From Siderastrea radians (taxonomy: Eukaryota; Cnidaria; Anthozoa; Scleractinia; Rhizangiidae), in assembly GCA_964017195.1 (NCBI GenBank), contig OZ024895.1, positions 17,274,534 through 17,338,533 of the forward strand: 64,000 nt of DNA, read 5' to 3'. The notes beneath the pieces were generated by a model that was not told the origin of the DNA, made no database searches, and worked only from the letters and a program-made list of their open reading frames with translations. The position numbers were made by a program, and so were the translations under genes. Shown piece after piece: positions 16,141 to 47,875 of the stretch (position 1 is its first letter; each line of letters opens with the position of its first letter).

Positions 16141-16280
16141 TATAGACGTGACAGGGCTTAAATTTCAAGTCACGGCATGAGGGTTTCTGCAATGATCACG
16201 AATCTTCGCTTTATTTCTTTCATATGTGGGTGTGGTTATGTGTAAAACATTGAACACGTGCAATTTTTTTGGCATAAATC

Positions 16281-16288
16281 TATAAAAG
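16281..16288 (+). promoter_or_regulatory. TATA box of unit 1 transposase
   Basis: TATAAAAG about 85 bp before the ATG of the broken unit 1 transposase. The surrounding sequence is the same as in the other units, so this promoter is probably still competent upstream of a dead gene. Confidence 0.5.
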
Positions 16289-16372
16289 AAATAAACCCTA
16301 TTCCTGCACACATAACAGGAAAAGTAATTTACCAAACAGGATTGATAAACCGGAATTTCGTAAGGAGCGAAA

Positions 16373-16913
16373 ATGGTTTTTAAAGGTTATATACCTGCAG
16401 ATACTAGAGCATCAGTTTTTCAACTTAGACAAAGTACTTGTGAAATTGTTTGTTGGAATAACGTATAACGAGGGCGTTGTATTGTGTGAGCCATATGAGC
16501 ACCTATCAGGAGCTTCATTTGCTGCCTTTATTGAAAAGCATTTTAGCCCAACATTTACTAAAGCCAATAAGAATGGCAGTAGGCTATGGGTTCAAGATAA
16601 TGACCCCTCGCAAAGCTCGAGACTCGCAAAAAATGCGATGAAAAATTGCAACTGTGATACGTCGCTTATTGCGCTACCTTGTCGAAGCCCAGACCTTTCT
16701 CCACCAGAGAACTTTTTTCATTTAGTACGATGTAAGCTGAAAAAAGATGCTTTAAGGCTGAACATCACTAAAGAAACATATCAAGAATTCAAGGAAAGGG
16801 TCATCCGCACAATTTATAGCATTCCGGTTGAAAACATTAACAAGATTATCGCGTCAATGCCCGATCGGCTTGATGCAATTATAGATAAGAACGGCTGTCG
16901 TACAAAATATTAA
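16373..16913 (+). pseudogene. deleted DDE transposase, unit 1
   Basis: Same start as the intact copies, but 551 bp are missing between AAAGTACT (residue 22) and TGTGAAATTG (about residue 206), with ACT shared by both edges, as in end joining or slippage through microhomology. The deletion shifts the frame and removes the DNA-binding region and first catalytic Asp (D160). The downstream piece 16440-16913 remains open and keeps the second Asp and the Glu, but cannot make an active enzyme. Upstream, 5 bp (ATTGA relative to other units) are also missing. Confidence 0.9.
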
Positions 16914-17104
16914 ACACAAACAGTGATGTTTATTTGTGTTTTACCCAGGAGCTCAGGACCTTTTGGTTATTTTAACAGTTAAAGTACACACAATTTCATA
17001 CTTACAAACTAAGAAATGTATTCAGTTAGCAAGGAGTGGATCACTGTAATGTGCAATAGCTTCGTTATAAGATACATTTACAATTGCGTAATTTGTTGTG
17101 TTTA

Positions 17105-17191
17105 CGGGTTACCATTGTAACCCGACAACATTTGAAAATGAACATAGACCTCATTGTTATTAAATAAATGACGGGTTACAGTGGTAACCCG
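17105..17191. promoter_or_regulatory. twin hairpin between convergent genes, unit 1 (candidate origin or terminator)
   Basis: CGGGTTAC-CATT-GTAACCCG (17105-17124) is followed 47 bp later by CGGGTTAC-AGTG-GTAACCCG (17172-17191). The outer arms extend as GTTTACGGGTTAC and GTAACCCGTAAAC, so the two hairpins can also pair with each other into a cruciform or T shape. Four copies of one octamer beside a Rep gene fit iterons or a nicking origin. The position, near an AATAAA at 17163-17168 and downstream of both stops, also fits a 3'-end signal. No canonical CRESS-virus nonanucleotide was found. Confidence 0.5.
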
Positions 17192-17405
17192 TAAACAATG
17201 AACGTAATGTTATGTCTGTCTGAGTACTAAACAAAGTAACAGAATATAATCCTTCAGATCATGTCAATTTAACTGTTATAAAGGTGTCACAAGCTTATTA
17301 TTTATTTCATTTAACAATCTCCTTCATATTAAAATATTGCCTTCGTTTCCGAAAGGCTGTTTCAGTACAAAGAAATAAGAACTGTTCGAAGCGCATAAAA
17401 TGCCT

Positions 17406-18857
17406 CTATTCCAATATGAGTTGCGCGAAACATTTTGGACAAGACTCAATAATAACTTGTTCCTCTTGTAGTATTTGTGCGTGTAACGAAAACACGCGCC
17501 ACCTTACCGCCATCATTTCGGTTTCCCTATCGTCCACTACACCGTTTCTAAGAGAAATAATTTCACTCTTTGACGTGCAGAAGATTGGTATGTCCTTATC
17601 GAACACAATGTCTTGCGCGTAATGCGTCTTTGGGGCAGAAAAATGCACAGGTTGCCCTTTTAGTAATAAAAGCATGTCTTGCCAAGGTAGCACTTGTGCA
17701 GACCACCTAAAATCGTTGAGAAAGATGATTTCAGCATTTTCGGCGCCCACCCAAGCAAATGATGTGCTCGCAGGGTTTACAAATGTCTTGTATATCACGG
17801 TCAGCGGATTTAATAGAAACGTTTTACCTCGATTTGCGCCACCTTTCAGAAAAATATTGCGGTACTTTCCTCTACCTTTATCTAACAATTCATGAACAGC
17901 CGCACCGAACTCTGTTTGTGTAATTCCATTTCGCTCAAGAATGTCCTTCGCCATAGTCAACCAACGTCCATTGCAATTGTGTGTACAGTCCCCCTCTAAG
18001 GCGGCCTGCAGGATTTCCAATCTTGACATCTGTTGACGCTTCAATTTCTCTTCAGATTCTTCTATTTCCCACCCTGTTTTGATGGCTTCTTCTACTGCTT
18101 TCTTCCCTCTGTTTACAATGAACTGAGCCAAATCTGTTTTCCCCTCCGTCTTCTGTCTCTTGGCAAGTGCAAGTAGGCCCAGGTAGCTTTTGATCCCTTT
18201 CGATACAGCTATCTCTGAGACTTCAAACATGCTTAGGCGTGGTGCTCGTTTTCTCTTTCTCCCAGATGTTGTTGGAGTGCTCTCTTCCTCTGATTCTGTC
18301 TCTTCACTTTGTGTCGATGTAATAGCGGCCCTGTCAGCAGCAACAGCTTCGCTAGCTGCCGTTGTCACTGGTGGTTGGCTGTTCCACAGATCAGGGTGTC
18401 CAGGCGAATGCAAAACCTCACTGTCCTCTTTAGTCACGTACAGCCAGGCACTGTAGTAGTTGACGTGTCTGTTTGAAAAGTGTACATTTATACTATATCG
18501 AGACTGCATAAATTGCCGAACAGCTAACCAGCGTCTAGGCTTTGATAGCTTAATAGCCATATGGAAATGTATACCACCATCAGCATGATACTCTAGGCAA
18601 CACGACCATTGCTCGACGCGAGACTCGGTGTTTTCATCTCGAAAATGAAATGCCTCCAAAACGAGATTTGCAAACCTTTGCCGAGAAGACACTTTAAGTG
18701 TGTCCGCTTGACTGTAGGTTATTAAATAAACTCTCCGTATTTCACGAACCCCTAAACTCGCTTGAGTGTTAGAACTTTCAGCCATTTTGTAGTGTTGGGA
18801 AATCAAAAGAAATGTCGTAACCAAGACCACCCGTAATGTATCTCGACAGAGAGACAA
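17406..18857 (-). CDS. Rep-like protein: HUH endonuclease + SF3 helicase, unit 1
   Basis: A replication initiator expected to nick DNA at an origin through a tyrosine and unwind it. Motif I is YLITYSQ (residues 44-50), motif II is HFH (97-99) and motif III is YVTK (140-143, Y140 the likely nucleophile). A charged linker with a basic stretch RKRKR (about 200-204) could be a nuclear signal. The helicase has Walker A GGANRGKT (339-346), Walker B IIFLND (377-382), motif C IFCTSK (425-430, with Lys where SF3 usually has Asn) and an Arg-rich RETEMMAVRW. Met25 (ATG at 18785) has a better start context (ACAAAATGG) than Met1. This domain order is that of Rep proteins of small circular or linear ssDNA viruses and related mobile elements; the closest group is not determinable by eye. 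Unit 1 has Ile423 and Ala178. Confidence 0.9.
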   Translation of the reverse strand: MSLCRDTLRVVLVTTFLLISQHYKMAESSNTQASLGVREIRRVYLITYSQADTLKVSSRQRFANLVLEAFHFRDENTESRVEQWSCCLEYHADGGIHFHMAIKLSKPRRWLAVRQFMQSRYSINVHFSNRHVNYYSAWLYVTKEDSEVLHSPGHPDLWNSQPPVTTAASEAVAADRAAITSTQSEETESEEESTPTTSGRKRKRAPRLSMFEVSEIAVSKGIKSYLGLLALAKRQKTEGKTDLAQFIVNRGKKAVEEAIKTGWEIEESEEKLKRQQMSRLEILQAALEGDCTHNCNGRWLTMAKDILERNGITQTEFGAAVHELLDKGRGKYRNIFLKGGANRGKTFLLNPLTVIYKTFVNPASTSFAWVGAENAEIIFLNDFRWSAQVLPWQDMLLLLKGQPVHFSAPKTHYAQDIVFDKDIPIFCTSKSEIISLRNGVVDDRETEMMAVRWRVFSLHAQILQEEQVIIESCPKCFAQLILE

Positions 18858-19111
18858 TGCAATTAACTACTTGTTAATTAAGGCAAAAGTGTCACCACAT
18901 CACTGCACGCGATTAATGTATTAACAAGCGATAAACGATTTACAGAAAGGCATGTATTGCTGCTATGTTCCATCTCACCCACAACAAAGAACAATAATCA
19001 CGGAAATATACTCCATCTCGCGCATAAATGAAATCAATAATCAGAAATAATGAGCTTCCACTGTCAAAGAGTAACGCAGTCTAACAAGACATTCGATACG
19101 TTTATTTTGTA

Positions 19112-19119
19112 TACATGTA
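19112..19119. other. unit 1/2 junction scar TACATGTA
   Basis: The junction reads GTATACATGTATAG. CATG between two TA dinucleotides is what Tc1-type excision leaves when an element with CA...TG ends departs: two terminal bases from each side. The bracketing MITE has exactly such ends and adjoins the array ends at this same position. Confidence 0.75.
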
Positions 19120-19257
19120 TAGACGTGACAGGGCTTAAATTTCAAGTCACGGCATGAGGGTTTCTGCAATGATCACGAATCTTCGCTTTATTTCTTTCAT
19201 ATGTGGGTGTGGTTATGTGTAAAACATTGAACACGTGCAATTTTTTTGGCATAAATC

Positions 19258-19265
19258 TATAAAAG
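19258..19265 (+). promoter_or_regulatory. TATA box of transposase promoter, unit 2
   Basis: TATAAAAG lies 90 bp before the ATG. The equivalent boxes in later units start at 30355, 33888, 37421, 40954 and 44487. The spacing leaves room for a short 5' leader. Confidence 0.6.
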
Positions 19266-19354
19266 AAATAAACCCTATTCCTGCACACATAACAGGAAAA
19301 GTAATTTACCAATTGAAACAGGATTGATAAACCGGAATTTCGTAAGGAGCGAAA

Positions 19355-20446
19355 ATGGTTTTTAAAGGTTATATACCTGCAGATACTAGAGCATCAGTTT
19401 TTCAACTTAGACAAAGTACTGACATGAGTATCCGTCAAATTGCGAAAGTCTGTGGTATTTCACCGGCTTCAGCTACAAGGGTTTTAAAAGTCGGTATCCA
19501 AAGAAGATTACATTGTTGTCGTCGAAGTGGCCGGCCTAAAAAACTATCAGCGAGGCAAGAGAGGATACTGATGCGGAATTTACTCAAACTGAGAAATGAA
19601 AATCCCGGCTTTTCAGTGAAAGATTTGATGACGGAGTGTGGTGTGAGCTTAAGAGAGGTTTCAGAGAGGACTGTTAGTCGTTTACTACAGCGAAACGGGT
19701 ATTTTTATCTCCAAACAAGGAAGAAAGGACTGTTGACTAAAAGCGATTTGTGCGAACGCGTGCGATTTGCCAAGTTGATAAACACGGTCTATGGTCCTGA
19801 TGTTTGGACCAAACAAATTGCGTTTTATTTGGACGGAGTATCGTTCGCGTTTAAAACCAATCCACTCGAAGCAGCACGAGCACCCAAAGCAAGAATCTGG
19901 AGAAAGCTTGGCGAAGGTTTATCGTTTGGATGCACAGCAAAAGGGAGGAAAGAAGGAACTGGCGGTAAACTTGTGAAATTGTTTGTTGGAATAACGTATA
20001 ACGAGGGCGTTGTATTGTGTGAGCCATATGAGCACCTATCAGGAGCTTCATTTGCTGCCTTTATTGAAAAGCATTTTAGCCCAACATTTACTAAAGCCAA
20101 TAAGAATGGCAGTAGGCTATGGGTTCAAGATAATGACCCCTCGCAAAGCTCGAGACTCGCAAAAAATGCGATGAAAAATTGCAACTGTGATACGTCGCTT
20201 ATTGCGCTACCTTGTCGAAGCCCAGACCTTTCTCCACCAGAGAACTTTTTTCATTTAGTACGATGTAAGCTGAAAAAAGATGCTTTAAGGCTGAACATCA
20301 CTAAAGAAACATATCAAGAATTCAAGGAAAGGGTCATCCGCACAATTTATAGCATTCCGGTTGAAAACATTAACAAGATTATCGCGTCAATGCCCGATCG
20401 GCTTGATGCAATTATAGATAAGAACGGCTGTCGTACAAAATATTAA
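19355..20446 (+). CDS. Tc1/mariner-type DDE transposase, unit 2 (first intact copy)
   Basis: A 363-aa cut-and-paste transposase of the IS630/Tc1/mariner superfamily. The N-terminal helix-turn-helix is at about 24-47 (MSIRQIAKVCGISPASATRV), followed by a basic GRPKKL linker (59-64) and a second winged-helix-like region (to about 115). The catalytic triad is D160 (AFYLDG), D259 (VQDND) and E296 (SPDLSPPEN). I count 36 residues between the second Asp and Glu, i.e. DD36E. Length is normal for the family. The start follows GCGAAAATGG, a reasonable animal context. The gene converges on the Rep gene of the same unit with about 490 bp between stops. Expected targets are TA dinucleotides. Confidence 0.93.
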   Translation: MVFKGYIPADTRASVFQLRQSTDMSIRQIAKVCGISPASATRVLKVGIQRRLHCCRRSGRPKKLSARQERILMRNLLKLRNENPGFSVKDLMTECGVSLREVSERTVSRLLQRNGYFYLQTRKKGLLTKSDLCERVRFAKLINTVYGPDVWTKQIAFYLDGVSFAFKTNPLEAARAPKARIWRKLGEGLSFGCTAKGRKEGTGGKLVKLFVGITYNEGVVLCEPYEHLSGASFAAFIEKHFSPTFTKANKNGSRLWVQDNDPSQSSRLAKNAMKNCNCDTSLIALPCRSPDLSPPENFFHLVRCKLKKDALRLNITKETYQEFKERVIRTIYSIPVENINKIIASMPDRLDAIIDKNGCRTKY

Positions 20447-20637
20447 ACACAAACAGTGATGTTTATTTGTGTTTTACCCAGGAGCTCAGGACCTTTTGGT
20501 TATTTTAACAGTTAAAGTACACACAATTTCATACTTACAAACTAAGAAATGTATTCAGTTAGCAAGGAGTGGATCACTGTAATGTGCAATAGCTTCGTTA
20601 TAAGATACATTTACAATTGCGTAATTTGTTGTGTTTA

Positions 20638-20724
20638 CGGGTTACCATTGTAACCCGACAACATTTGAAAATGAACATAGACCTCATTGTTATTAAATAA
20701 ATGACGGGTTACAGTGGTAACCCG
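20638..20724. promoter_or_regulatory. twin hairpin, unit 2
   Basis: Same two CGGGTTAC/GTAACCCG hairpins as in unit 1, unchanged. Confidence 0.5.
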
Positions 20725-20938
20725 TAAACAATGAACGTAATGTTATGTCTGTCTGAGTACTAAACAAAGTAACAGAATATAATCCTTCAGATCATGTCAA
20801 TTTAACTGTTATAAAGGTGTCACAAGCTTATTATTTATTTCATTTAACAATCTCCTTCATATTAAAATATTGCCTTCGTTTCCGAAAGGCTGTTTCAGTA
20901 CAAAGAAATAAGAACTGTTCGAAGCGCATAAAATGCCT

Positions 20939-22390
20939 CTATTCCAATATGAGTTGCGCGAAACATTTTGGACAAGACTCAATAATAACTTGTTCCTCTT
21001 GTAGTATTTGTGCGTGTAACGAAAACACGCGCCACCTTACCGCCATCATTTCGGTTTCCCTATCGTCCACTACACCGTTTCTAAGAGAAATAATTTCACT
21101 CTTTGACGTGCAGAAGATTGGTGTGTCCTTATCGAACACAATGTCTTGCGCGTAATGCGTCTTTGGGGCAGAAAAATGCACAGGTTGCCCTTTTAGTAAT
21201 AAAAGCATGTCTTGCCAAGGTAGCACTTGTGCAGACCACCTAAAATCGTTGAGAAAGATGATTTCAGCATTTTCGGCGCCCACCCAAGCAAATGATGTGC
21301 TCGCAGGGTTTACAAATGTCTTGTATATCACGGTCAGCGGATTTAATAGAAACGTTTTACCTCGATTTGCGCCACCTTTCAGAAAAATATTGCGGTACTT
21401 TCCTCTACCTTTATCTAACAATTCATGAACAGCCGCACCGAACTCTGTTTGTGTAATTCCATTTCGCTCAAGAATGTCCTTCGCCATAGTCAACCAACGT
21501 CCATTGCAATTGTGTGTACAGTCCCCCTCTAAGGCGGCCTGCAGGATTTCCAATCTTGACATCTGTTGACGCTTCAATTTCTCTTCAGATTCTTCTATTT
21601 CCCACCCTGTTTTGATGGCTTCTTCTACTGCTTTCTTCCCTCTGTTTACAATGAACTGAGCCAAATCTGTTTTCCCCTCCGTCTTCTGTCTCTTGGCAAG
21701 TGCAAGTAGGCCCAGGTAGCTTTTGATCCCTTTCGATACAGCTATCTCTGAGACTTCAAACATGCTTAGGCGTGGTGCTCGTTTTCTCTTTCTCCCAGAT
21801 GTTGTTGGAGTGCTCTCTTCCTCTGATTCTGTCTCTTCACTTTGTGTCGATGTAATAGCGGCCCTGTCAGCAGCAACAGCTTCGCTAGCTGCCGTTGTCA
21901 CTGGTGGTTGGCTGTTCCACAGATCAGGGTGTCCAGGCGAATGCAAAACCTCACTGTCCTCTTTAGTCACGTACAGCCAGGCACTGTAGTAGTTGACGTG
22001 TCTGTTTGAAAAGTGTACATTTATACTATATCGAGACTGCATAAATTGCCGAACAGCTAACCAGCGTCTAGGCTTTGATAGCTTAATAGCCATATGGAAA
22101 TGTATACCACCATCAGCATGATACTCTAGGCAACACGACCATTGCTCGACGCGAGACTCGGTGTTTTCATCTCGAAAATGAAATGCCTCCAAAACGAGAT
22201 TTGCAAACCTTTGCCGAGAAGACACTTTAAGTGTGTCCGCTTGACTGTAGGTTATTAAATAAACTCTCCGTATTTCACGAACCCCTAAACTCGCTTGAGT
22301 GTTAGAACTTTCAGCCATTTTGTAGTGTTGGGAAATCAAAAGAAATGTCGTAACCAAGACCACCCGTAATGTATCTCGACAGAGAGACAA
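20939..22390 (-). CDS. Rep-like HUH + SF3 protein, unit 2
   Basis: Full-length 483-aa copy with all HUH, Walker A, Walker B and motif C residues. It differs from unit 1 at residue 423 (Thr instead of Ile, just before motif C), the state shared with units 4 and 6. Codon 178 is Ala. Confidence 0.9.
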   Translation of the reverse strand: MSLCRDTLRVVLVTTFLLISQHYKMAESSNTQASLGVREIRRVYLITYSQADTLKVSSRQRFANLVLEAFHFRDENTESRVEQWSCCLEYHADGGIHFHMAIKLSKPRRWLAVRQFMQSRYSINVHFSNRHVNYYSAWLYVTKEDSEVLHSPGHPDLWNSQPPVTTAASEAVAADRAAITSTQSEETESEEESTPTTSGRKRKRAPRLSMFEVSEIAVSKGIKSYLGLLALAKRQKTEGKTDLAQFIVNRGKKAVEEAIKTGWEIEESEEKLKRQQMSRLEILQAALEGDCTHNCNGRWLTMAKDILERNGITQTEFGAAVHELLDKGRGKYRNIFLKGGANRGKTFLLNPLTVIYKTFVNPASTSFAWVGAENAEIIFLNDFRWSAQVLPWQDMLLLLKGQPVHFSAPKTHYAQDIVFDKDTPIFCTSKSEIISLRNGVVDDRETEMMAVRWRVFSLHAQILQEEQVIIESCPKCFAQLILE

Positions 22391-22644
22391 TGCAATTAAC
22401 TACTTGTTAATTAAGGCAAAAGTGTCACCACATCACTGCACGCGATTAATGTATTAACAAGCGATAAACGATTTACAGAAAGGCATGTATTGCTGCTATG
22501 TTCCATCTCACCCACAACAAAGAACAATAATCACAGAAATATACTCCATCTCGCGCATAAATGAAATCAATAATCAGAAATAATGAGCTTCCACTGTCAA
22601 AGAGTAACGCAGTCTAACAAGACATTCGATACGTTTATTTTGTA

Positions 22645-22652
22645 TACATGTA
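22645..22652. other. unit 2/3 junction scar TACATGTA
   Basis: Identical to the unit 1/2 junction. The TTAA-targeted foldback element is inserted only 16 bp further on. Confidence 0.75.
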
Positions 22653-22671
22653 TAGACGTGACAGGGCTTAA

Positions 22672-24622
22672 GTGGCATTCTCGCTAAAAGCGGTCCACTC
22701 GATTTCGCGACCAAAAATAGTTTTCCTTTATTTTTTGTTTGTGAAAAGGGTTTGGTACACATGTATCAAAACCACTTTATTTATTTTCCAATTCTTTATT
22801 TTCGCTTTGCTACAAGCCAAAAACCAATTTTGCCCGCAACAGGGTTTCCGGCGGTGATCAAAAGGCTGAAATGTATGGATTTTGAGAGGCGGGTTACGGC
22901 CAATTAAATGTAGCTTACGAAATTTTGCTTTGACCTAGCATCTAAGATACACCGACCAAGTTCACAGACAAAATGTGGAAAAAGTTGATACATTTTTAGC
23001 GACGTCAGGTGAAGTTAAAGACAACCTACTCTGAAGCCTATAATGAGATCCCAAAAATGGACCAAATACAACAAACAATTTCGTATCGTTTGCGGCCTAA
23101 ATTGGGTTAAAAAACAACATCACAGCAAATTTCTTACCTTATTTAATCAATTTGTAAGCTCAAACGTGCGGGTATCTCCCTGGATCACAAGCGAAAACAG
23201 GTTAGAACTCCGCCATTGACAGCGTGTTAACGTAAATATCGCTCGTGTCAAAGGTCACTTACATCACCGTAGAAGTTGGCAAAAATACTTTAGTCGGGGA
23301 TCCTAACCCGTTGCTGTCCACCAAAATAAATGTCTATAGCTTCCTTTAATGCTCGTACATCCAATTTTGATCCAGAACAGCATGAAAGTTGCGTTAAGTT
23401 GATAAACATTCATGGCGGGTGACGCTCAACAAAGTAAACAACGTCAGGTATCGTAGTTGATCCAGGTTTCTGCTCCGGTAAGGAATACAAAACATTTTCA
23501 AGATCCCTAGAAGAAGAAAAGAAGTTATGTAGTTGACCTCTAACAATGAATTTAGACTGTTCTACACCTCCTGCAACTTGGACGCGGTCGAGGCAGAAAA
23601 ATATAATTTGAAAACTTGCAACGAAAATCGTGCTAGTTGTCCAGACTCACCTGGGAACTGGCCCGCCAGAAGGTGAAATGAAATTATTTTTGACTAAGTC
23701 GCTTGAGTTTCCGTTTTAGCTTTGCATCTAGTCGTTCAGTAATGGACTGTAGGAATCTTCCTTTCAGTATAACGAGAAATTGTGAAGTTCGCAGTAGTTG
23801 CGTGATTACTCATCTCAGAAGACTTGAGACGACCCCGACGTTTGCTTACGTCACAATTTGTCACACAATCTTATCAATGTCGTGCGACTAACTTAGTAGC
23901 AAGCGAAAAGAGAAATTTAAAAAAAATCCTTCGCGATTTAGGCCCTGTGCACTTTATGATAATTTATGGAAAGTGGGGAACAGGTTTCATCTAGCAAATG
24001 AGAGAAAAAAAGGGCGAGCGTGACGCGGCACATTGGCGTTCACCCAAAACATATAGAGGATATTACACGGCGGCGCGAAGATAGGAATTTTATTTTCGAG
24101 TGCTAAGATATTGTCTTTTACCACGAGAAAATAAAATTCATATAGTCAAGCCACCATGTAATATTCTTTTTATTATATAAAGTAGAGTATTTTTGCACAT
24201 GAGTGAGAGAATAAGAGAGTGTAAGAGCGGAAAATGACGTCATTGATATCCTCACAAGTGAGGATATGGATAATACGCCACTTCGAGTCCCAGATGTAGT
24301 TTCGTGTGAACTTTACGAGTGGTCTACTTTCCACTAAAACACTCTTGTCTAAGAGAAATACGTCACAACGCACGGTACAAAGTCAAATATGAATAGCAAA
24401 TATGAATAGGAAATATCAAATATAGCACGAAACGCGAGTTTTTCTCAAACTGAGCAGTTGCGAGAGAAAACGTTTCAATACTTACGAGTAGTTGTGTAAA
24501 ATCAATCAATGATTAAATAAATATTCATTCCAATGCCGAGGAATCACGGGACTGGGGAGCACTAACAAACTAAGATATCTTCACCGCTACTTCAAATATT
24601 GGACGGGGTGGGGGTTGTTGAA
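22672..24622. repeat. left arm of TTAA foldback element
   Basis: About 1.95 kb, reverse-complementary to the right arm. The first about 220 bp are nearly perfect; inner parts differ by scattered substitutions. It is non-coding: the 61-codon frame near the tip is mirrored in the right arm and has no known domain. Confidence 0.85.
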
Positions 24623-33741: not shown

Positions 33742-33749
33742 TACATGTA
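33742..33749. other. unit 3/4 junction scar TACATGTA
   Basis: Identical to the other internal junctions. Confidence 0.75.
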
Positions 33750-37020: not shown

Positions 37021-37274
37021 TGCAATTAACTACTTGTTAATTAAGGCAAAAGTGTCACCACATCACTGCACGCGATTAATGTATTAACAAGCGATAAACG
37101 ATTTACAGAAAGGCATGTATTGCTGCTATGTTCCATCTCACCCACAACAAAGAACAATAATCACAGAAATATACTCCATCTCGCGCATAAATGAAATCAA
37201 TAATCAGAAATAATGAGCTTCCACTGTCAAAGAGTAACGCAGTCTAACAAGACATTCGATACGTTTATTTTGTA

Positions 37275-37282
37275 TACATGTA
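37275..37282. other. unit 4/5 junction scar TACATGTA
   Basis: Identical to the other internal junctions. Confidence 0.75.
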
Positions 37283-37517
37283 TAGACGTGACAGGGCTTA
37301 AATTTCAAGTCACGGCATGAGGGTTTCTGCAATGATCACGAATCTTCGCTTTATTTCTTTCATATGTGGGTGTGGTTATGTGTAAAACATTGAACACGTG
37401 CAATTTTTTTGGCATAAATCTATAAAAGAAATAAACCCTATTCCTGCACACATAACAGGAAAAGTAATTTACCAATTGAAACAGGATTGATAAACCGGAA
37501 TTTCGTAAGGAGCGAAA

Positions 37518-38609: not shown

Positions 38610-38800
38610 ACACAAACAGTGATGTTTATTTGTGTTTTACCCAGGAGCTCAGGACCTTTTGGTTATTTTAACAGTTAAAGTACACACAATTTCATACTTA
38701 CAAACTAAGAAATGTATTCAGTTAGCAAGGAGTGGATCACTGTAATGTGCAATAGCTTCGTTATAAGATACATTTACAATTGCGTAATTTGTTGTGTTTA

Positions 38801-38887
38801 CGGGTTACCATTGTAACCCGACAACATTTGAAAATGAACATAGACCTCATTGTTATTAAATAAATGACGGGTTACAGTGGTAACCCG
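38801..38887. promoter_or_regulatory. twin hairpin, unit 5
   Basis: Unchanged copy of the pair described for unit 1. Confidence 0.5.
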
Positions 38888-39101
38888 TAAACAATGAACG
38901 TAATGTTATGTCTGTCTGAGTACTAAACAAAGTAACAGAATATAATCCTTCAGATCATGTCAATTTAACTGTTATAAAGGTGTCACAAGCTTATTATTTA
39001 TTTCATTTAACAATCTCCTTCATATTAAAATATTGCCTTCGTTTCCGAAAGGCTGTTTCAGTACAAAGAAATAAGAACTGTTCGAAGCGCATAAAATGCC
39101 T

Positions 39102-40553
39102 CTATTCCAATATGAGTTGCGCGAAACATTTTGGACAAGACTCAATAATAACTTGTTCCTCTTGTAGTATTTGTGCGTGTAACGAAAACACGCGCCACCT
39201 TACCGCCATCATTTCGGTTTCCCTATCGTCCACTACACCGTTTCTAAGAGAAATAATTTCACTCTTTGACGTGCAGAAGATTGGTATGTCCTTATCGAAC
39301 ACAATGTCTTGCGCGTAATGCGTCTTTGGGGCAGAAAAATGCACAGGTTGCCCTTTTAGTAATAAAAGCATGTCTTGCCAAGGTAGCACTTGTGCAGACC
39401 ACCTAAAATCGTTGAGAAAGATGATTTCAGCATTTTCGGCGCCCACCCAAGCAAATGATGTGCTCGCAGGGTTTACAAATGTCTTGTATATCACGGTCAG
39501 CGGATTTAATAGAAACGTTTTACCTCGATTTGCGCCACCTTTCAGAAAAATATTGCGGTACTTTCCTCTACCTTTATCTAACAATTCATGAACAGCCGCA
39601 CCGAACTCTGTTTGTGTAATTCCATTTCGCTCAAGAATGTCCTTCGCCATAGTCAACCAACGTCCATTGCAATTGTGTGTACAGTCCCCCTCTAAGGCGG
39701 CCTGCAGGATTTCCAATCTTGACATCTGTTGACGCTTCAATTTCTCTTCAGATTCTTCTATTTCCCACCCTGTTTTGATGGCTTCTTCTACTGCTTTCTT
39801 CCCTCTGTTTACAATGAACTGAGCCAAATCTGTTTTCCCCTCCGTCTTCTGTCTCTTGGCAAGTGCAAGTAGGCCCAGGTAGCTTTTGATCCCTTTCGAT
39901 ACAGCTATCTCTGAGACTTCAAACATGCTTAGGCGTGGTGCTCGTTTTCTCTTTCTCCCAGATGTTGTTGGAGTGCTCTCTTCCTCTGATTCTGTCTCTT
40001 CACTTTGTGTCGATGTAATAGCGGCCCTGTCAGCAGCAACAGCTTCGCTAGCTGCCGTTGTCACTGGTGGTTGGCTGTTCCACAGATCAGGGTGTCCAGG
40101 CGAATGCAAAACCTCACTGTCCTCTTTAGTCACGTACAGCCAGGCACTGTAGTAGTTGACGTGTCTGTTTGAAAAGTGTACATTTATACTATATCGAGAC
40201 TGCATAAATTGCCGAACAGCTAACCAGCGTCTAGGCTTTGATAGCTTAATAGCCATATGGAAATGTATACCACCATCAGCATGATACTCTAGGCAACACG
40301 ACCATTGCTCGACGCGAGACTCGGTGTTTTCATCTCGAAAATGAAATGCCTCCAAAACGAGATTTGCAAACCTTTGCCGAGAAGACACTTTAAGTGTGTC
40401 CGCTTGACTGTAGGTTATTAAATAAACTCTCCGTATTTCACGAACCCCTAAACTCGCTTGAGTGTTAGAACTTTCAGCCATTTTGTAGTGTTGGGAAATC
40501 AAAAGAAATGTCGTAACCAAGACCACCCGTAATGTATCTCGACAGAGAGACAA
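39102..40553 (-). CDS. Rep-like HUH + SF3 protein, unit 5
   Basis: Identical in protein sequence to unit 1 (Ile423, Ala178). It also shares with unit 1 a G at the upstream marker (19002 and 40698) where the other units have A. Confidence 0.9.
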   Translation of the reverse strand: MSLCRDTLRVVLVTTFLLISQHYKMAESSNTQASLGVREIRRVYLITYSQADTLKVSSRQRFANLVLEAFHFRDENTESRVEQWSCCLEYHADGGIHFHMAIKLSKPRRWLAVRQFMQSRYSINVHFSNRHVNYYSAWLYVTKEDSEVLHSPGHPDLWNSQPPVTTAASEAVAADRAAITSTQSEETESEEESTPTTSGRKRKRAPRLSMFEVSEIAVSKGIKSYLGLLALAKRQKTEGKTDLAQFIVNRGKKAVEEAIKTGWEIEESEEKLKRQQMSRLEILQAALEGDCTHNCNGRWLTMAKDILERNGITQTEFGAAVHELLDKGRGKYRNIFLKGGANRGKTFLLNPLTVIYKTFVNPASTSFAWVGAENAEIIFLNDFRWSAQVLPWQDMLLLLKGQPVHFSAPKTHYAQDIVFDKDIPIFCTSKSEIISLRNGVVDDRETEMMAVRWRVFSLHAQILQEEQVIIESCPKCFAQLILE

Positions 40554-40807
40554 TGCAATTAACTACTTGTTAATTAAGGCAAAAGTGTCACCACATCACT
40601 GCACGCGATTAATGTATTAACAAGCGATAAACGATTTACAGAAAGGCATGTATTGCTGCTATGTTCCATCTCACCCACAACAAAGAACAATAATCACGGA
40701 AATATACTCCATCTCGCGCATAAATGAAATCAATAATCAGAAATAATGAGCTTCCACTGTCAAAGAGTAACGCAGTCTAACAAGACATTCGATACGTTTA
40801 TTTTGTA

Positions 40808-40815
40808 TACATGTA
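40808..40815. other. unit 5/6 junction scar TACATGTA
   Basis: Identical to the other internal junctions. Confidence 0.75.
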
Positions 40816-41050
40816 TAGACGTGACAGGGCTTAAATTTCAAGTCACGGCATGAGGGTTTCTGCAATGATCACGAATCTTCGCTTTATTTCTTTCATATGT
40901 GGGTGTGGTTATGTGTAAAACATTGAACACGTGCAATTTTTTTGGCATAAATCTATAAAAGAAATAAACCCTATTCCTGCACACATAACAGGAAAAGTAA
41001 TTTACCAATTGAAACAGGATTGATAAACCGGAATTTCGTAAGGAGCGAAA

Positions 41051-42142
41051 ATGGTTTTTAAAGGTTATATACCTGCAGATACTAGAGCATCAGTTTTTCA
41101 ACTTAGACAAAGTACTGACATGAGTATCCGTCAAATTGCGAAAGTCTGTGGTATTTCACCGGCTTCAGCTACAAGGGTTTTAAAAGTCGGTATCCAAAGA
41201 AGATTACATTGTTGTCGTCGAAGTGGCCGGCCTAAAAAACTATCAGCGAGGCAAGAGAGGATACTGATGCGGAATTTACTCAAACTGAGAAATGAAAATC
41301 CCGGCTTTTCAGTGAAAGATTTGATGACGGAGTGTGGTGTGAGCTTAAGAGAGGTTTCAGAGAGGACTGTTAGTCGTTTACTACAGCGAAACGGGTATTT
41401 TTATCTCCAAACAAGGAAGAAAGGACTGTTGACTAAAAGCGATTTGTGCGAACGCGTGCGATTTGCCAAGTTGATAAACACGGTCTATGGTCCTGATGTT
41501 TGGACCAAACAAATTGCGTTTTATTTGGACGGAGTATCGTTCGCGTTTAAAACCAATCCACTCGAAGCAGCACGAGCACCCAAAGCAAGAATCTGGAGAA
41601 AGCTTGGCGAAGGTTTATCGTTTGGATGCACAGCAAAAGGGAGGAAAGAAGGAACTGGCGGTAAACTTGTGAAATTGTTTGTTGGAATAACGTATAACGA
41701 GGGCGTTGTATTGTGTGAGCCATATGAGCACCTATCAGGAGCTTCATTTGCTGCCTTTATTGAAAAGCATTTTAGCCCAACATTTACTAAAGCCAATAAG
41801 AATGGCAGTAGGCTATGGGTTCAAGATAATGACCCCTCGCAAAGCTCGAGACTCGCAAAAAATGCGATGAAAAATTGCAACTGTGATACGTCGCTTATTG
41901 CGCTACCTTGTCGAAGCCCAGACCTTTCTCCACCAGAGAACTTTTTTCATTTAGTACGATGTAAGCTGAAAAAAGATGCTTTAAGGCTGAACATCACTAA
42001 AGAAACATATCAAGAATTCAAGGAAAGGGTCATCCGCACAATTTATAGCATTCCGGTTGAAAACATTAACAAGATTATCGCGTCAATGCCCGATCGGCTT
42101 GATGCAATTATAGATAAGAACGGCTGTCGTACAAAATATTAA
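41051..42142 (+). CDS. Tc1/mariner-type DDE transposase, unit 6
   Basis: Protein identical to unit 2 by eye; triad intact. Confidence 0.93.
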   Translation: MVFKGYIPADTRASVFQLRQSTDMSIRQIAKVCGISPASATRVLKVGIQRRLHCCRRSGRPKKLSARQERILMRNLLKLRNENPGFSVKDLMTECGVSLREVSERTVSRLLQRNGYFYLQTRKKGLLTKSDLCERVRFAKLINTVYGPDVWTKQIAFYLDGVSFAFKTNPLEAARAPKARIWRKLGEGLSFGCTAKGRKEGTGGKLVKLFVGITYNEGVVLCEPYEHLSGASFAAFIEKHFSPTFTKANKNGSRLWVQDNDPSQSSRLAKNAMKNCNCDTSLIALPCRSPDLSPPENFFHLVRCKLKKDALRLNITKETYQEFKERVIRTIYSIPVENINKIIASMPDRLDAIIDKNGCRTKY

Positions 42143-42333
42143 ACACAAACAGTGATGTTTATTTGTGTTTTACCCAGGAGCTCAGGACCTTTTGGTTATT
42201 TTAACAGTTAAAGTACACACAATTTCATACTTACAAACTAAGAAATGTATTCAGTTAGCAAGGAGTGGATCACTGTAATGTGCAATAGCTTCGTTATAAG
42301 ATACATTTACAATTGCGTAATTTGTTGTGTTTA

Positions 42334-42420
42334 CGGGTTACCATTGTAACCCGACAACATTTGAAAATGAACATAGACCTCATTGTTATTAAATAAATGA
42401 CGGGTTACAGTGGTAACCCG
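42334..42420. promoter_or_regulatory. twin hairpin, unit 6
   Basis: Unchanged copy of the pair described for unit 1. Confidence 0.5.
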
Positions 42421-42634
42421 TAAACAATGAACGTAATGTTATGTCTGTCTGAGTACTAAACAAAGTAACAGAATATAATCCTTCAGATCATGTCAATTTA
42501 ACTGTTATAAAGGTGTCACAAGCTTATTATTTATTTCATTTAACAATCTCCTTCATATTAAAATATTGCCTTCGTTTCCGAAAGGCTGTTTCAGTACAAA
42601 GAAATAAGAACTGTTCGAAGCGCATAAAATGCCT

Positions 42635-44086
42635 CTATTCCAATATGAGTTGCGCGAAACATTTTGGACAAGACTCAATAATAACTTGTTCCTCTTGTAG
42701 TATTTGTGCGTGTAACGAAAACACGCGCCACCTTACCGCCATCATTTCGGTTTCCCTATCGTCCACTACACCGTTTCTAAGAGAAATAATTTCACTCTTT
42801 GACGTGCAGAAGATTGGTGTGTCCTTATCGAACACAATGTCTTGCGCGTAATGCGTCTTTGGGGCAGAAAAATGCACAGGTTGCCCTTTTAGTAATAAAA
42901 GCATGTCTTGCCAAGGTAGCACTTGTGCAGACCACCTAAAATCGTTGAGAAAGATGATTTCAGCATTTTCGGCGCCCACCCAAGCAAATGATGTGCTCGC
43001 AGGGTTTACAAATGTCTTGTATATCACGGTCAGCGGATTTAATAGAAACGTTTTACCTCGATTTGCGCCACCTTTCAGAAAAATATTGCGGTACTTTCCT
43101 CTACCTTTATCTAACAATTCATGAACAGCCGCACCGAACTCTGTTTGTGTAATTCCATTTCGCTCAAGAATGTCCTTCGCCATAGTCAACCAACGTCCAT
43201 TGCAATTGTGTGTACAGTCCCCCTCTAAGGCGGCCTGCAGGATTTCCAATCTTGACATCTGTTGACGCTTCAATTTCTCTTCAGATTCTTCTATTTCCCA
43301 CCCTGTTTTGATGGCTTCTTCTACTGCTTTCTTCCCTCTGTTTACAATGAACTGAGCCAAATCTGTTTTCCCCTCCGTCTTCTGTCTCTTGGCAAGTGCA
43401 AGTAGGCCCAGGTAGCTTTTGATCCCTTTCGATACAGCTATCTCTGAGACTTCAAACATGCTTCGGCGTGGTGCTCGTTTTCTCTTTCTCCCAGATGTTG
43501 TTGGAGTGCTCTCTTCCTCTGATTCTGTCTCTTCACTTTGTGTCGATGTAATAGCGGCCCTGTCAGCAGCAACAGCTTCGCTAGCTGCCGTTGTCACTGG
43601 TGGTTGGCTGTTCCACAGATCAGGGTGTCCAGGCGAATGCAAAACCTCACTGTCCTCTTTAGTCACGTACAGCCAGGCACTGTAGTAGTTGACGTGTCTG
43701 TTTGAAAAGTGTACATTTATACTATATCGAGACTGCATAAATTGCCGAACAGCTAACCAGCGTCTAGGCTTTGATAGCTTAATAGCCATATGGAAATGTA
43801 TACCACCATCAGCATGATACTCTAGGCAACACGACCATTGCTCGACGCGAGACTCGGTGTTTTCATCTCGAAAATGAAATGCCTCCAAAACGAGATTTGC
43901 AAACCTTTGCCGAGAAGACACTTTAAGTGTGTCCGCTTGACTGTAGGTTATTAAATAAACTCTCCGTATTTCACGAACCCCTAAACTCGCTTGAGTGTTA
44001 GAACTTTCAGCCATTTTGTAGTGTTGGGAAATCAAAAGAAATGTCGTAACCAAGACCACCCGTAATGTATCTCGACAGAGAGACAA
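42635..44086 (-). CDS. Rep-like HUH + SF3 protein, unit 6
   Basis: Full-length with Thr423 as in units 2 and 4. It has one private change, Leu208Arg, just after the basic stretch in the linker and outside known catalytic motifs. Confidence 0.9.
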   Translation of the reverse strand: MSLCRDTLRVVLVTTFLLISQHYKMAESSNTQASLGVREIRRVYLITYSQADTLKVSSRQRFANLVLEAFHFRDENTESRVEQWSCCLEYHADGGIHFHMAIKLSKPRRWLAVRQFMQSRYSINVHFSNRHVNYYSAWLYVTKEDSEVLHSPGHPDLWNSQPPVTTAASEAVAADRAAITSTQSEETESEEESTPTTSGRKRKRAPRRSMFEVSEIAVSKGIKSYLGLLALAKRQKTEGKTDLAQFIVNRGKKAVEEAIKTGWEIEESEEKLKRQQMSRLEILQAALEGDCTHNCNGRWLTMAKDILERNGITQTEFGAAVHELLDKGRGKYRNIFLKGGANRGKTFLLNPLTVIYKTFVNPASTSFAWVGAENAEIIFLNDFRWSAQVLPWQDMLLLLKGQPVHFSAPKTHYAQDIVFDKDTPIFCTSKSEIISLRNGVVDDRETEMMAVRWRVFSLHAQILQEEQVIIESCPKCFAQLILE

Positions 44087-44340
44087 TGCAATTAACTACT
44101 TGTTAATTAAGGCAAAAGTGTCACCACATCACTGCACGCGATTAATGTATTAACAAGCGATAAACGATTTACAGAAAGGCATGTATTGCTGCTATGTTCC
44201 ATCTCACCCACAACAAAGAACAATAATCACAGAAATATACTCCATCTCGCGCATAAATGAAATCAATAATCAGAAATAATGAGCTTCCACTGTCAAAGAG
44301 TAACGCAGTCTAACAAGACATTCGATACGTTTATTTTGTA

Positions 44341-44348
44341 TACATGTA
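44341..44348. other. unit 6/7 junction scar TACATGTA
   Basis: Identical to the other internal junctions. Confidence 0.75.
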
Positions 44349-44583
44349 TAGACGTGACAGGGCTTAAATTTCAAGTCACGGCATGAGGGTTTCTGCAATG
44401 ATCACGAATCTTCGCTTTATTTCTTTCATATGTGGGTGTGGTTATGTGTAAAACATTGAACACGTGCAATTTTTTTGGCATAAATCTATAAAAGAAATAA
44501 ACCCTATTCCTGCACACATAACAGGAAAAGTAATTTACCAATTGAAACAGGATTGATAAACCGGAATTTCGTAAGGAGCGAAA

Positions 44584-45675
44584 ATGGTTTTTAAAGGTTA
44601 TATACCTGCAGATACTAGAGCATCAGTTTTTCAACTTAGACAAAGTACTGACATGAGTATCCGTCAAATTGCGAAAGTCTGTGGTATTTCACCGGCTTCA
44701 GCTACAAGGGTTTTAAAAGTCGGTATCCAAAGAAGATTACATTGTTGTCGTCGAAGTGGCCGGCCTAAAAAACTATCAGCGAGGCAAGAGAGGATACTGA
44801 TGCGGAATTTACTCAAACTGAGAAATGAAAATCCCGGCTTTTCAGTGAAAGATTTGATGACGGAGTGTGGTGTGAGCTTAAGAGAGGTTTCAGAGAGGAC
44901 TGTTAGTCGTTTACTACAGCGAAACGGGTATTTTTATCTCCAAACAAGGAAGAAAGGACTGTTGACTAAAAGCGATTTGTGCGAACGCGTGCGATTTGCC
45001 AAGTTGATAAACACGGTCTATGGTCCTGATGTTTGGACCAAACAAATTGCGTTTTATTTGGACGGAGTATCGTTCGCGTTTAAAACCAATCCACTCGAAG
45101 CAGCACGAGCACCCAAAGCAAGAATCTGGAGAAAGCTTGGCGAAGGTTTATCGTTTGGATGCACAGCAAAAGGGAGGAAAGAAGGAACTGGCGGTAAACT
45201 TGTGAAATTGTTTGTTGGAATAACGTATAACGAGGGCGTTGTATTGTGTGAGCCATATGAGCACCTATCAGGAGCTTCATTTGCTGCCTTTATTGAAAAG
45301 CATTTTAGCCCAACATTTACTAAAGCCAATAAGAATGGCAGTAGGCTATGGGTTCAAGATAATGACCCCTCGCAAAGCTCGAGACTCGCAAAAAATGCGA
45401 TGAAAAATTGCAACTGTGATACGTCGCTTATTGCGCTACCTTGTCGAAGCCCAGACCTTTCTCCACCAGAGAACTTTTTTCATTTAGTACGATGTAAGCT
45501 GAAAAAAGATGCTTTAAGGCTGAACATCACTAAAGAAATATATCAAGAATTCAAGGAAAGGGTCATCCGCACAATTTATAGCATTCCGGTTGAAAACATT
45601 AACAAGATTATCGCGTCAATGCCCGATCGGCTTGATGCAATTATAGATAAGAACGGCTGTCGTACAAAATATTAA
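44584..45675 (+). CDS. Tc1/mariner-type DDE transposase, unit 7
   Basis: Full-length with intact triad and one private change, Thr319Ile, in the C-terminal region after the catalytic Glu. Confidence 0.92.
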   Translation: MVFKGYIPADTRASVFQLRQSTDMSIRQIAKVCGISPASATRVLKVGIQRRLHCCRRSGRPKKLSARQERILMRNLLKLRNENPGFSVKDLMTECGVSLREVSERTVSRLLQRNGYFYLQTRKKGLLTKSDLCERVRFAKLINTVYGPDVWTKQIAFYLDGVSFAFKTNPLEAARAPKARIWRKLGEGLSFGCTAKGRKEGTGGKLVKLFVGITYNEGVVLCEPYEHLSGASFAAFIEKHFSPTFTKANKNGSRLWVQDNDPSQSSRLAKNAMKNCNCDTSLIALPCRSPDLSPPENFFHLVRCKLKKDALRLNITKEIYQEFKERVIRTIYSIPVENINKIIASMPDRLDAIIDKNGCRTKY

Positions 45676-45866
45676 ACACAAACAGTGATGTTTATTTGTG
45701 TTTTACCCAGGAGCTCAGGACCTTTTGGTTATTTTAACAGTTAAAGTACACACAATTTCATACTTACAAACTAAGAAATGTATTCAGTTAGCAAGGAGTG
45801 GATCACTGTAATGTGCAATAGCTTCGTTATAAGATACATTTACAATTGCGTAATTTGTTGTGTTTA

Positions 45867-45953
45867 CGGGTTACCATTGTAACCCGACAACATTTGAAAA
45901 TGAACATAGACCTCATTGTTATTAAATAAATGACGGGTTACAGTGGTAACCCG
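45867..45953. promoter_or_regulatory. twin hairpin, unit 7
   Basis: Unchanged copy of the pair described for unit 1. Confidence 0.5.
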
Positions 45954-46167
45954 TAAACAATGAACGTAATGTTATGTCTGTCTGAGTACTAAACAAAGTA
46001 ACAGAATATAATCCTTCAGATCATGTCAATTTAACTGTTATAAAGGTGTCACAAGCTTATTATTTATTTCATTTAACAATCTCCTTCATATTAAAATATT
46101 GCCTTCGTTTCCGAAAGGCTGTTTCAGTACAAAGAAATAAGAACTGTTCGAAGCGCATAAAATGCCT

Positions 46168-47619
46168 CTATTCCAATATGAGTTGCGCGAAACATTTTGG
46201 ACAAGACTCAATAATAACTTGTTCCTCTTGTAGTATTTGTGCGTGTAACGAAAACACGCGCCACCTTACCGCCATCATTTCGGTTTCCCTATCGTCCACT
46301 ACACCGTTTCTAAGAGAAATAATTTCACTCTTTGACGTGCAGAAGATTGGTATGTCCTTATCGAACACAATGTCTTGCGCGTAATGCGTCTTTGGGGCAG
46401 AAAAATGCACAGGTTGCCCTTTTAGTAATAAAAGCATGTCTTGCCAAGGTAGCACTTGTGCAGACCACCTAAAATCGTTGAGAAAGATGATTTCAGCATT
46501 TTCGGCGCCCACCCAAGCAAATGATGTGCTCGCAGGGTTTACAAATGTCTTGTATATCACGGTCAGCGGATTTAATAGAAACGTTTTACCTCGATTTGCG
46601 CCACCTTTCAGAAAAATATTGCGGTACTTTCCTCTACCTTTATCTAACAATTCATGAACAGCCGCACCGAACTCTGTTTGTGTAATTCCATTTCGCTCAA
46701 GAATGTCCTTCGCCATAGTCAACCAACGTCCATTGCAATTGTGTGTACAGTCCCCCTCTAAGGCGGCCTGCAGGATTTCCAATCTTGACATCTGTTGACG
46801 CTTCAATTTCTCTTCAGATTCTTCTATTTCCCACCCTGTTTTGATGGCTTCTTCTACTGCTTTCTTCCCTCTGTTTACAATGAACTGAGCCAAATCTGTT
46901 TTCCCCTCCGTCTTCTGTCTCTTGGCAAGTGCAAGTAGGCCCAGGTAGCTTTTGATCCCTTTCGATACAGCTATCTCTGAGACTTCAAACATGCTTAGGC
47001 GTGGTGCTCGTTTTCTCTTTCTCCCAGATGTTGTTGGAGTGCTCTCTTCCTCTGATTCTGTCTCTTCACTTTGTGTCGATGTAATAACGGCCCTGTCAGC
47101 AGCAACAGCTTCGCTAGCTGCCGTTGTCACTGGTGGTTGGCTGTTCCACAGATCAGGGTGTCCAGGCGAATGCAAAACCTCACTGTCCTCTTTAGTCACG
47201 TACAGCCAGGCACTGTAGTAGTTGACGTGTCTGTTTGAAAAGTGTACATTTATACTATATCGAGACTGCATAAATTGCCGAACAGCTAACCAGCGTCTAG
47301 GCTTTGATAGCTTAATAGCCATATGGAAATGTATACCACCATCAGCATGATACTCTAGGCAACACGACCATTGCTCGACGCGAGACTCGGTGTTTTCATC
47401 TCGAAAATGAAATGCCTCCAAAACGAGATTTGCAAACCTTTGCCGAGAAGACACTTTAAGTGTGTCCGCTTGACTGTAGGTTATTAAATAAACTCTCCGT
47501 ATTTCACGAACCCCTAAACTCGCTTGAGTGTTAGAACTTTCAGCCATTTTGTAGTGTTGGGAAATCAAAAGAAATGTCGTAACCAAGACCACCCGTAATG
47601 TATCTCGACAGAGAGACAA
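46168..47619 (-). CDS. Rep-like HUH + SF3 protein, unit 7
   Basis: Full-length, with Ile423 and Val178, matching unit 3. Its upstream region runs only to TA 47874-47875, where the right MITE replaces the scar and the next unit, so it no longer has a transposase promoter beside it. Confidence 0.9.
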   Translation of the reverse strand: MSLCRDTLRVVLVTTFLLISQHYKMAESSNTQASLGVREIRRVYLITYSQADTLKVSSRQRFANLVLEAFHFRDENTESRVEQWSCCLEYHADGGIHFHMAIKLSKPRRWLAVRQFMQSRYSINVHFSNRHVNYYSAWLYVTKEDSEVLHSPGHPDLWNSQPPVTTAASEAVAADRAVITSTQSEETESEEESTPTTSGRKRKRAPRLSMFEVSEIAVSKGIKSYLGLLALAKRQKTEGKTDLAQFIVNRGKKAVEEAIKTGWEIEESEEKLKRQQMSRLEILQAALEGDCTHNCNGRWLTMAKDILERNGITQTEFGAAVHELLDKGRGKYRNIFLKGGANRGKTFLLNPLTVIYKTFVNPASTSFAWVGAENAEIIFLNDFRWSAQVLPWQDMLLLLKGQPVHFSAPKTHYAQDIVFDKDIPIFCTSKSEIISLRNGVVDDRETEMMAVRWRVFSLHAQILQEEQVIIESCPKCFAQLILE

Positions 47620-47875
47620 TGCAATTAACTACTTGTTAATTAAGGCAAAAGTGTCACCACATCACTGCACGCGATTAATGTATTAACAAGCGATAAACGA
47701 TTTACAGAAAGGCATGTATTGCTGCTATGTTCCATCTCACCCACAACAAAGAACAATAATCACAGAAATATACTCCATCTCGCGCATAAATGAAATCAAT
47801 AATCAGAAATAATGAGCTTCCACTGTCAAAGAGTAACGCAGTCTAACAAGACATTCGATACGTTTATTTTGTATA

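Follow-up and report, generated by a model that had tools for sequence, protein, structure and literature searches.

The window analyzed here, a stretch of 64,000 nucleotides from the stony coral Siderastrea radians (assembly GCA_964017195.1, contig OZ024895.1), contains a tandem array of an element in which a Rep protein with HUH endonuclease and superfamily 3 (SF3) helicase motifs is paired with a Tc1/mariner-type transposase (Tnp), and the pair lies between terminal direct repeats (TDRs) that have inverted ends of their own. On balance, we think it probable that the element is an autonomous composite-like DNA transposon of the form TDR-[Tnp> <Rep]-TDR, in which Rep would multiply circular copies and Tnp would move the pieces bounded by TDRs.

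Array, genes and terminal direct repeats

The array consists of seven head-to-tail units (16139-47877, period 3,533 bp). Identity between the units is ~99.9%; apart from the deletions of unit 1, they vary at 8 sites. The complete unit has two convergent genes, Tnp on the forward and Rep on the reverse strand, and a survey of its open reading frames (ORFs) found no third ATG ORF longer than 75 aa. An initial annotation of this DNA had described such a seven-unit array of a 3,533-bp repeat with only two sizeable, convergent genes and no capsid gene, and that description holds. The array is less regular than was then thought: the seven units stand, but ~551 bp are missing from unit 1 and an insertion of 7,560 bp interrupts unit 3. 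The annotation also took the bare 3.5-kb repeat for the mobile unit; it had missed the 183-bp TDRs flanking the array, and the mobile unit is TDR-unit-TDR. The features are as follows.

15960..16142, +, left TDR, 183 bp, reading TA-CAATCACTGCCA...TGGCAGTGATTG-TA, with ~30-bp inverted ends and a single hairpin fold
47874..48056, +, right TDR, identical to the left TDR
16139..19115, +, unit 1, with an internal deletion of ~551 bp that includes the Tnp start, plus 5 bp upstream of it; its first 4 bp overlap the left TDR
19116..22648, +, unit 2, complete, 3,533 bp
22649..33745, +, unit 3, interrupted by a nested insertion (22672-30231)
33746..37278, +, unit 4
37279..40811, +, unit 5
40812..44344, +, unit 6
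44345..47877, +, unit 7, of which the final 4 bp are shared with the right TDR
19355..20446, +, Tnp, 363 aa, Tc1/mariner-type, HTH_Tnp_Tc3_2 and DDE_3 domains, DD36E
30452-31543, 33985-35076, 37518-38609, 41051-42142 and 44584-45675, +, other intact Tnp copies
16440-16913, +, truncated Tnp copy of unit 1
20939..22318, −, Rep, HUH endonuclease and SF3 helicase, 459 aa from the first ATG
17406-18785, 32036-33415, 35569-36948, 39102-40481, 42635-44014 and 46168-47547, −, other Rep copies
20632..20730, no strand, intergenic palindrome between the 3' ends of both genes, with GGGTTAC/GTAACCC iterons and a loop containing ACAACATT; one per unit
19112..19119, TDR-less junction TACATGTA; the same at 22645-22652, 33742-33749, 37275-37282, 40808-40815 and 44341-44348

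The two TDRs that enclose the array are set between C-TA and TA-G, and as DNA the TDR folds into one long hairpin (−37.7 kcal/mol, z −5.9), with none of 200 shuffled sequences folding as well. Inside the array, all six junctions are identical and read TACATGTA. If two bases of either element end stay behind after cutting of the Tc1 type, excision of a TDR would produce exactly TA-CA-TG-TA; the TACATGTA junction is the predicted 2-nt excision footprint of a TDR removed by such a reaction.

The two proteins

The Rep frame measures 483 aa when opened by TTG and 459 aa when counted from the first ATG. Its stretches RRVYLITYSQA, HFH, YVTK, GGANRGKT (Walker A) and IIFLNDFRW align with 31 relatives, and the HUH (HFH, YVTK) and SF3 motifs reported in the initial annotation are among them. 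A profile comparison, which the annotation had proposed, yielded only sub-threshold Pfam matches for the window Rep, with no Parvo_NS1 match at E 1; among 32 members of the Rep family, matches at E 0.01 were obtained to REP_ORF2-G2P (18), PPV_E1_C (10) and Parvo_NS1 (9). Solved structures searched with the Rep sequence alone gave weak, unrelated matches only. When an AlphaFold (AF2) model of Rep (mean pLDDT 83, pTM 0.54) was submitted to Foldseek, the best matches were Rep68 of adeno-associated virus 2 (AAV2; E 9e-13, along most of the length) and the papillomavirus E1 helicase. Whole-chain TM-scores were low (~0.38), which makes the arrangement of the Rep domains uncertain; judged by its modeled fold, Rep is a parvovirus-like HUH + SF3 protein. 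Named Rep relatives among the matches listed come from the stony corals Acropora millepora, Porites harrisoni, Porites lobata and Oculina patagonica. Two scans of the viral contig collection and one of GTDB genome contigs turned up no relative.

Tnp has Pfam matches above cut-offs to HTH_Tnp_Tc3_2, DDE_3 and HTH_23 and a catalytic triad of D160, D259 and E296 (DD36E), in agreement with its earlier assignment to the Tc1/mariner type on the basis of a DDE triad; its best PDB match is Sleeping Beauty (E 6.8e-5). Triad spacing in the 31 aligned Tnp relatives is 34 in 26, 36 in four and 33 in one, and three of the 31 lack a catalytic letter in the triad columns. Tc1/mariner elements are normally single-gene, cut-and-paste elements. 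The coral element has the helix-turn-helix domains, the DDE_3 triad and, in 13/13 tabulated insertions, a TA at both outer ends, but instead of a single gene between terminal inverted repeats it has two genes between direct repeats.

Recurrence of the gene pair

Searches of the S. radians assembly to which the window belongs (805 Mb, 439 contigs) located Rep at no fewer than 95 places (92 of 412 candidates scored), Tnp at 114 or more (112 of 436) and the TDR in at least 46 matches (40 of 180). The Rep places cluster into 58 loci among the matches listed: 20 of the window family, the window array counting as two of them, and 38 diverged loci (44-64% identity). With pairing defined as a Tnp within 4 kb of Rep, all 20 window-family loci and 18 of the 38 diverged loci listed are paired, compared to a chance expectation of ~0.0007 per locus under uniform placement, and the orientation is convergent in 37 of these 38 pairs. 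The initial annotation had reasoned that, if other genomes never showed the two genes together outside this array, their pairing would be a one-off nested insertion; within the coral's own genome, the pair clearly recurs beyond it. That we are dealing with such a one-off insertion followed by tandem duplication, or with an assembly artefact, is extremely improbable: only the odd gene pair itself speaks for it, and it is refuted by the genome-wide recurrence just described. Arrays at several chromosomal places with different units also speak against it, as do the unit-specific variants, the deletion and the nested insertion that the window array holds.

Five of the unpaired diverged Rep loci were opened, of which two have a broken near-full-length Tnp, two a Tnp fragment and one (L033) none; two unpaired diverged Tnp loci (L042 and L043; L numbers are locus labels), both arrays, each contain a Rep remnant. 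At seven diverged loci both frames are open, and their translations are 42-59% (Rep) and 43-46% (Tnp) identical to the window (for L044, the ATG frame used for Rep starts at residue 56). Rep and Tnp distances over eight loci correlate with r 0.96 (p 0.0002), but two pairs are near-identical, and with six distinct lineages the values are r 0.48 and p 0.049 (rounded distances); these alignments weakly support co-divergence of the two genes. In other species, equal-sized contigs carrying Rep and Tnp clusters numbered 3 vs. 1.4 expected (P 0.17; 120 best matches in each list), and a second comparison of this kind gave 3 vs. 1.6; these coincidences are no better than chance and were not used as evidence of pairing across species. 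A small clump of contigs at 3.5-4.25 kb is present in both Rep lists and in the Tnp list, which is suggestive of collapsed circles or tandem units.

L033 (C3:38897800-38903300; C numbers are contig labels of the assembly) contains an open 473-aa Rep between 314-bp inverted repeats (97%) bearing the shared core motif described below, and is possibly a Rep-only relative.

The character of Rep raises a further explanation, namely an endogenous parvovirus-like virus that, after losing its capsid, happened to acquire a Tc1/mariner element lying close by. It would account for a Rep fold nearest to AAV Rep68 and E1 helicases, for the weak Parvo_NS1 (9/32) and PPV_E1_C (10/32) matches in the family and for terminal repeats that form hairpins, and an HUH + SF3 protein of the NS1/Rep kind is indeed present. 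The same convergent pair recurring in diverged lineages, the lack of a third ATG ORF longer than 75 aa, and hence of a capsid gene, and the two scans of the viral contig collection without a relative all argue in the opposite direction, and we consider this origin very unlikely.

Insertion sites and solo TDRs

Among the 18 further window-family loci, 16 were opened and two were left unopened. Paired TDRs are present at 12 of the 16 and one outer TDR at the other four. All 13 tabulated insertions (ten composites including the window, and three solo or doublet TDR loci) show the site C-TA...TA-G, with AGC-TA-GCT as the preferred context; the table excludes L020, and L023 and L026 are without an intact TA-flanked outer end. 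Solo TDRs (~200 bp read per side) and a TDR doublet occur elsewhere in the genome. Of 12 left/right TDR pairs compared, eight consist of identical repeats, and the repeats of the remaining four differ at 1-2 sites. Variants specific to one pair and seen in no other insertion were found in L013 (two), L018 (one) and L026 (two), as if both repeats of a pair had been copied from one template, like the long terminal repeats of one retroelement.

The window array sits in one copy of a ~1.5-kb sequence, a second copy of which lies nearby in inverted orientation (10797-12327 vs. 15186-15967 and 48057-48811). The empty-site comparison concerns one site only, in this paralogous copy of the flank:

11546..11551, −, paralogous empty site; the flank is continuous without TDR or array, with TG instead of TA at the insertion point

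Arrays in diverged lineages

Arrays with two or more units number at least seven in the genome, the window included, and the diverged lineages have the same TDR-Tnp-Rep-TDR layout. The C1 array has six Rep copies (period 3,744) and the C14 array at least 15 (period 3,737); in these two and in the single-copy L034, the TDRs measure ~266-274 bp, have inverted ends and fold as hairpins (z −7.4 for the L034 TDR as DNA), and the inner junction is fixed. TA stands outside both outer ends of C1 and L034, no outer end of C14 having been read. Between units, the TDR is retained in the array at C2:60.65 Mb and, judged by even spacing, in the C1 array, and it is missing from 6/6 junctions in the window and from the single junction (1/1) at C12:28.99 Mb, which carries the footprint. 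Two steps of the C14 array are ~260 bp short, and the one that was read is GGA-CA-TG-TCC, the same footprint in a lineage with ~53% Rep identity.

At C12 26.43 Mb, a 2,445-bp unit which has lost most of Rep and has a broken Tnp frame is listed 23 times, with one more in L051; identity among the three stretches that were read is 99.9-100%, and the left end of the array is at a TA. The same Rep deletion, 2-4% diverged, occurs in one unit inside the C14 array, where the remaining units listed all score alike at the protein level. The Rep-deleted C12 array together with the diverged Rep-less C14 unit indicates that units amplify without a Rep of their own, and the latter also that units of different descent can share one array. 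The near-identity of units within one genome suggests recent activity of the element.

The C12 region (C12:26432705-26488947; L042, L050, L051) comprises at least 24 Rep-deleted units, two steps of which are 257-260 bp short, as if TDR-less. Elsewhere, L020/L021 (C14:9883500-9895500) contains two units that are identical, broken in a similar manner and oriented against each other, with TDRs doubled and tripled and irregular joints; the two units of this inverted dimer (L020) are identical over 3,530 bp. Its interpretation as a rolling-hairpin product was dropped, as the TDR orientation and the irregular junctions fit an inversion by cutting and religation equally well.

Candidate origins

The intergenic palindrome is self-complementary in 7/7 window units (DNA fold z −6.4). 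Comparable iteron-built palindromes between the genes are present in L029, L031, L035, L038 and L042, and none was detected by the same method in L033, L034, L036 and L037. Within the TDR, a core common to the window and the diverged lineages was recognized by eye, consisting of a C-rich part, CAATGTTG, a loop, CAACATTG and a G-rich part. The CAATGTTG...CAACATTG word pair is found in seven of the nine sequences examined and is absent from three other window parts searched. In the window, L029, L031, L038 and L042, ACAACATT occurs once in the palindrome and once per TDR read, its second position in L038 being the TDR core. ACAACATT is a candidate Rep nick site, and the intergenic palindrome may be a second Rep origin beside the TDR core.

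Proposed mechanism

In the composite transposon that we favor, Tnp would act on the inverted ends of TDRs, inserting a whole composite or a lone TDR at C-TA-G and excising single TDRs in such a way that CA+TG is left between the flanks. A circle would form through TDR recombination, or by joining of a unit after both TDRs had been cut. The origin nicked by Rep would be palindromic and lie in the TDR core, in the intergenic palindrome or in both (in several lineages the two carry ACAACATT), and Rep would copy the circle, with one TDR or none, into head-to-tail multimers; replication of a TDR-less circle from the intergenic palindrome would explain the TDR-less arrays. Multimers might then be released by cuts at TDR ends and reach new sites, or recombine with a copy already in place, causing arrays to grow, and defective units would be amplified in trans. 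The sequence itself shows the composite architecture, the recurrent pairing, insertion at TA, footprint-like junctions, solo TDRs and arrays, one of them made of Rep-less units; we infer that circles exist, that Rep nicks DNA, and that the arrays are the work of Rep and not of passive recombination. In its fullest form, the proposal is that the element combines replication of the small-virus kind with Tc1-like integration, the direct repeat being transposon end and Rep origin in one shared hairpin, with Rep-less units amplified in trans; here we see the chances as evenly balanced.

Arrays could also be made only by host recombination via TDRs, either by unequal exchange or by integration of circles, in a composite Tc1/mariner transposon whose Rep is an accessory nickase that promotes recombination or an unrelated passenger. 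A model of this kind exists for KolobokP, a group of composite-like DNA transposons for which induced unequal crossover was proposed (Kojima and Bao 2022; PMC9587614), and which, in the text of that paper, likewise occurs as TDR-unit-TDR, as solo repeats and as multimers, a homing endonuclease taking the place of Rep. Solo TDRs could come from recombination, and TDR exchange accounts for most arrays as well. Three shared variant sites of the window units follow a 4-unit period (U1=U5, U2=U6, U3=U7), which is compatible with block duplication. The explanation nevertheless appears to us possible rather than likely: both genes are open at the seven diverged loci translated, with Rep at 42-59% identity to the window, and Rep is therefore unlikely to be a neutral passenger; the 2-4% diverged Rep-less unit in C14 calls for more than exchange inside a single founder insertion; and palindromes with one shared motif suggest a Rep substrate.

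Several points weigh against replication by Rep in a Tnp-mobilized composite, the reading we prefer. No partner is listed for 20 of the 38 diverged Rep loci and for 15 of the 34 diverged Tnp loci, although most of those opened contained remnants, and the Rep copy of L033 lies between inverted, not direct, repeats without Tnp. L035 and L037 are without the full CAATGTTG/CAACATTG core pair, and the exact word ACAACATT is missing in L034 and also in L037. One block duplication explains the 4-unit period as well as a multimeric circle does, and unequal exchange between TDRs can likewise build arrays. The junctions of L020 are irregular and hence give no clean sign of hairpin replication. Finally, neither circles nor single-stranded DNA, transcripts or protein of the element were observed.

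Relation to known elements

Helitrons encode a RepHel with an SF1 (Pif1-type) helicase, have TC...CTRR ends and insert between A and T; the SF3 helicase fold and the CA...TG ends at TA rule out a Helitron. CRESS DNA viruses combine a circular genome, Rep, a capsid and a nonanucleotide stem-loop, and the coral element was not placed among them, as it has no capsid-sized third ORF and its origin is proposed by motif only.

The closest architecture is that of long terminal direct repeat (LTDR) composites, since the coral element likewise has an internal region between direct repeats with their own inverted ends, solo repeats and multimers. KolobokP, as described by Kojima and Bao, similarly carries a DDD/E transposase and a second nuclease between LTDRs that have their own short inverted ends, and forms solo repeats, (LTDR-INT)n-LTDR and LTDR-(INT)n-LTDR multimers and single-repeat excisions with footprints (PMC9587614). 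The differences lie in the components: KolobokP, in that description, has a Kolobok transposase together with a His-Me homing endonuclease and produces target duplications of 3-5 bp (PMC9587614), whereas the coral element combines a Tc1/mariner transposase with an HUH + SF3 Rep, inserts at TA within CTAG and has hairpin repeats 183-274 bp long. The terms HUH, Rep protein and hairpin are not present in the main text on KolobokP (PMC9587614), and membership of that lineage is ruled out by the Tc1/mariner Pfam matches and the HUH + SF3 second gene.

The initial annotation had known of no standard transposon class with this gene pair. A geminivirus-like transposon of Tuber melanosporum does combine a Rep-like gene and transposase ORFs in one repeated element (Liu et al. 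2011, PMC3198968); according to the section on it, the truffle element differs in that its Rep is geminivirus-like, its inverted repeats measure 37 bp, a target duplication is not obvious and its ORFs are interrupted or truncated, and direct repeats or arrays are not mentioned there (PMC3198968). The same paper describes parvovirus-like repeats in an acorn worm, Hydra (DENSOV_HM) and a planarian (PIVE), which resemble the coral element, by description only, in a parvovirus/papillomavirus-type helicase within a dispersed animal repeat and, in the acorn worm, a hairpin at one end; the passages concerned mention no Tc1/mariner partner, and the acorn-worm repeat has a coat-protein-like ORF (PMC3198968). 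Incomer, a Tc1/mariner family described as one-gene DD36E elements of ~1.2 kb with a single ORF between inverted repeats, shares the transposase domains, the DD36E spacing and the short inverted ends (PMC6875036). Membership in Incomer was rejected because 26 of the 31 aligned Tnp relatives have spacing 34 and the architecture is a composite with two genes. A literature search, with most subscription journals, preprints and Repbase outside it, returned no title or abstract start describing a Rep + Tc1/mariner composite. Cumulatively, the architecture has precedent, and the literature we searched offers none for a Tc1/mariner transposase that is combined with a parvovirus-like Rep and with direct repeats forming hairpins.

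Other features of the window

22672..30231, no strand, nested insertion in unit 3, 7,560 bp, with TTAA target duplication and GTGGCATTC ends; a later event, outside the element proper

This insertion has ~1.2-kb inverted end repeats (98%) and a second, inner inverted pair, contains no ORF longer than 108 aa, and is probably a non-autonomous DNA transposon. At 60695-61705, a 336-aa ORF resembles, by eye only, a seven-transmembrane receptor and is probably a host gene.

Implications

If the proposed mechanism is true, a Tc1/mariner lineage equipped with a replicase of viral type and with a hairpin repeat that serves two purposes would link the replication of single-stranded DNA viruses to DNA transposition, and would account for the formation of long tandem arrays by a DNA transposon. 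The coral element would then be an independent second case of the KolobokP architecture, and the two together would point to a general rule for direct-repeat composites, in which the DDE transposase is accompanied by a second enzyme that cuts DNA and multiplies the element.

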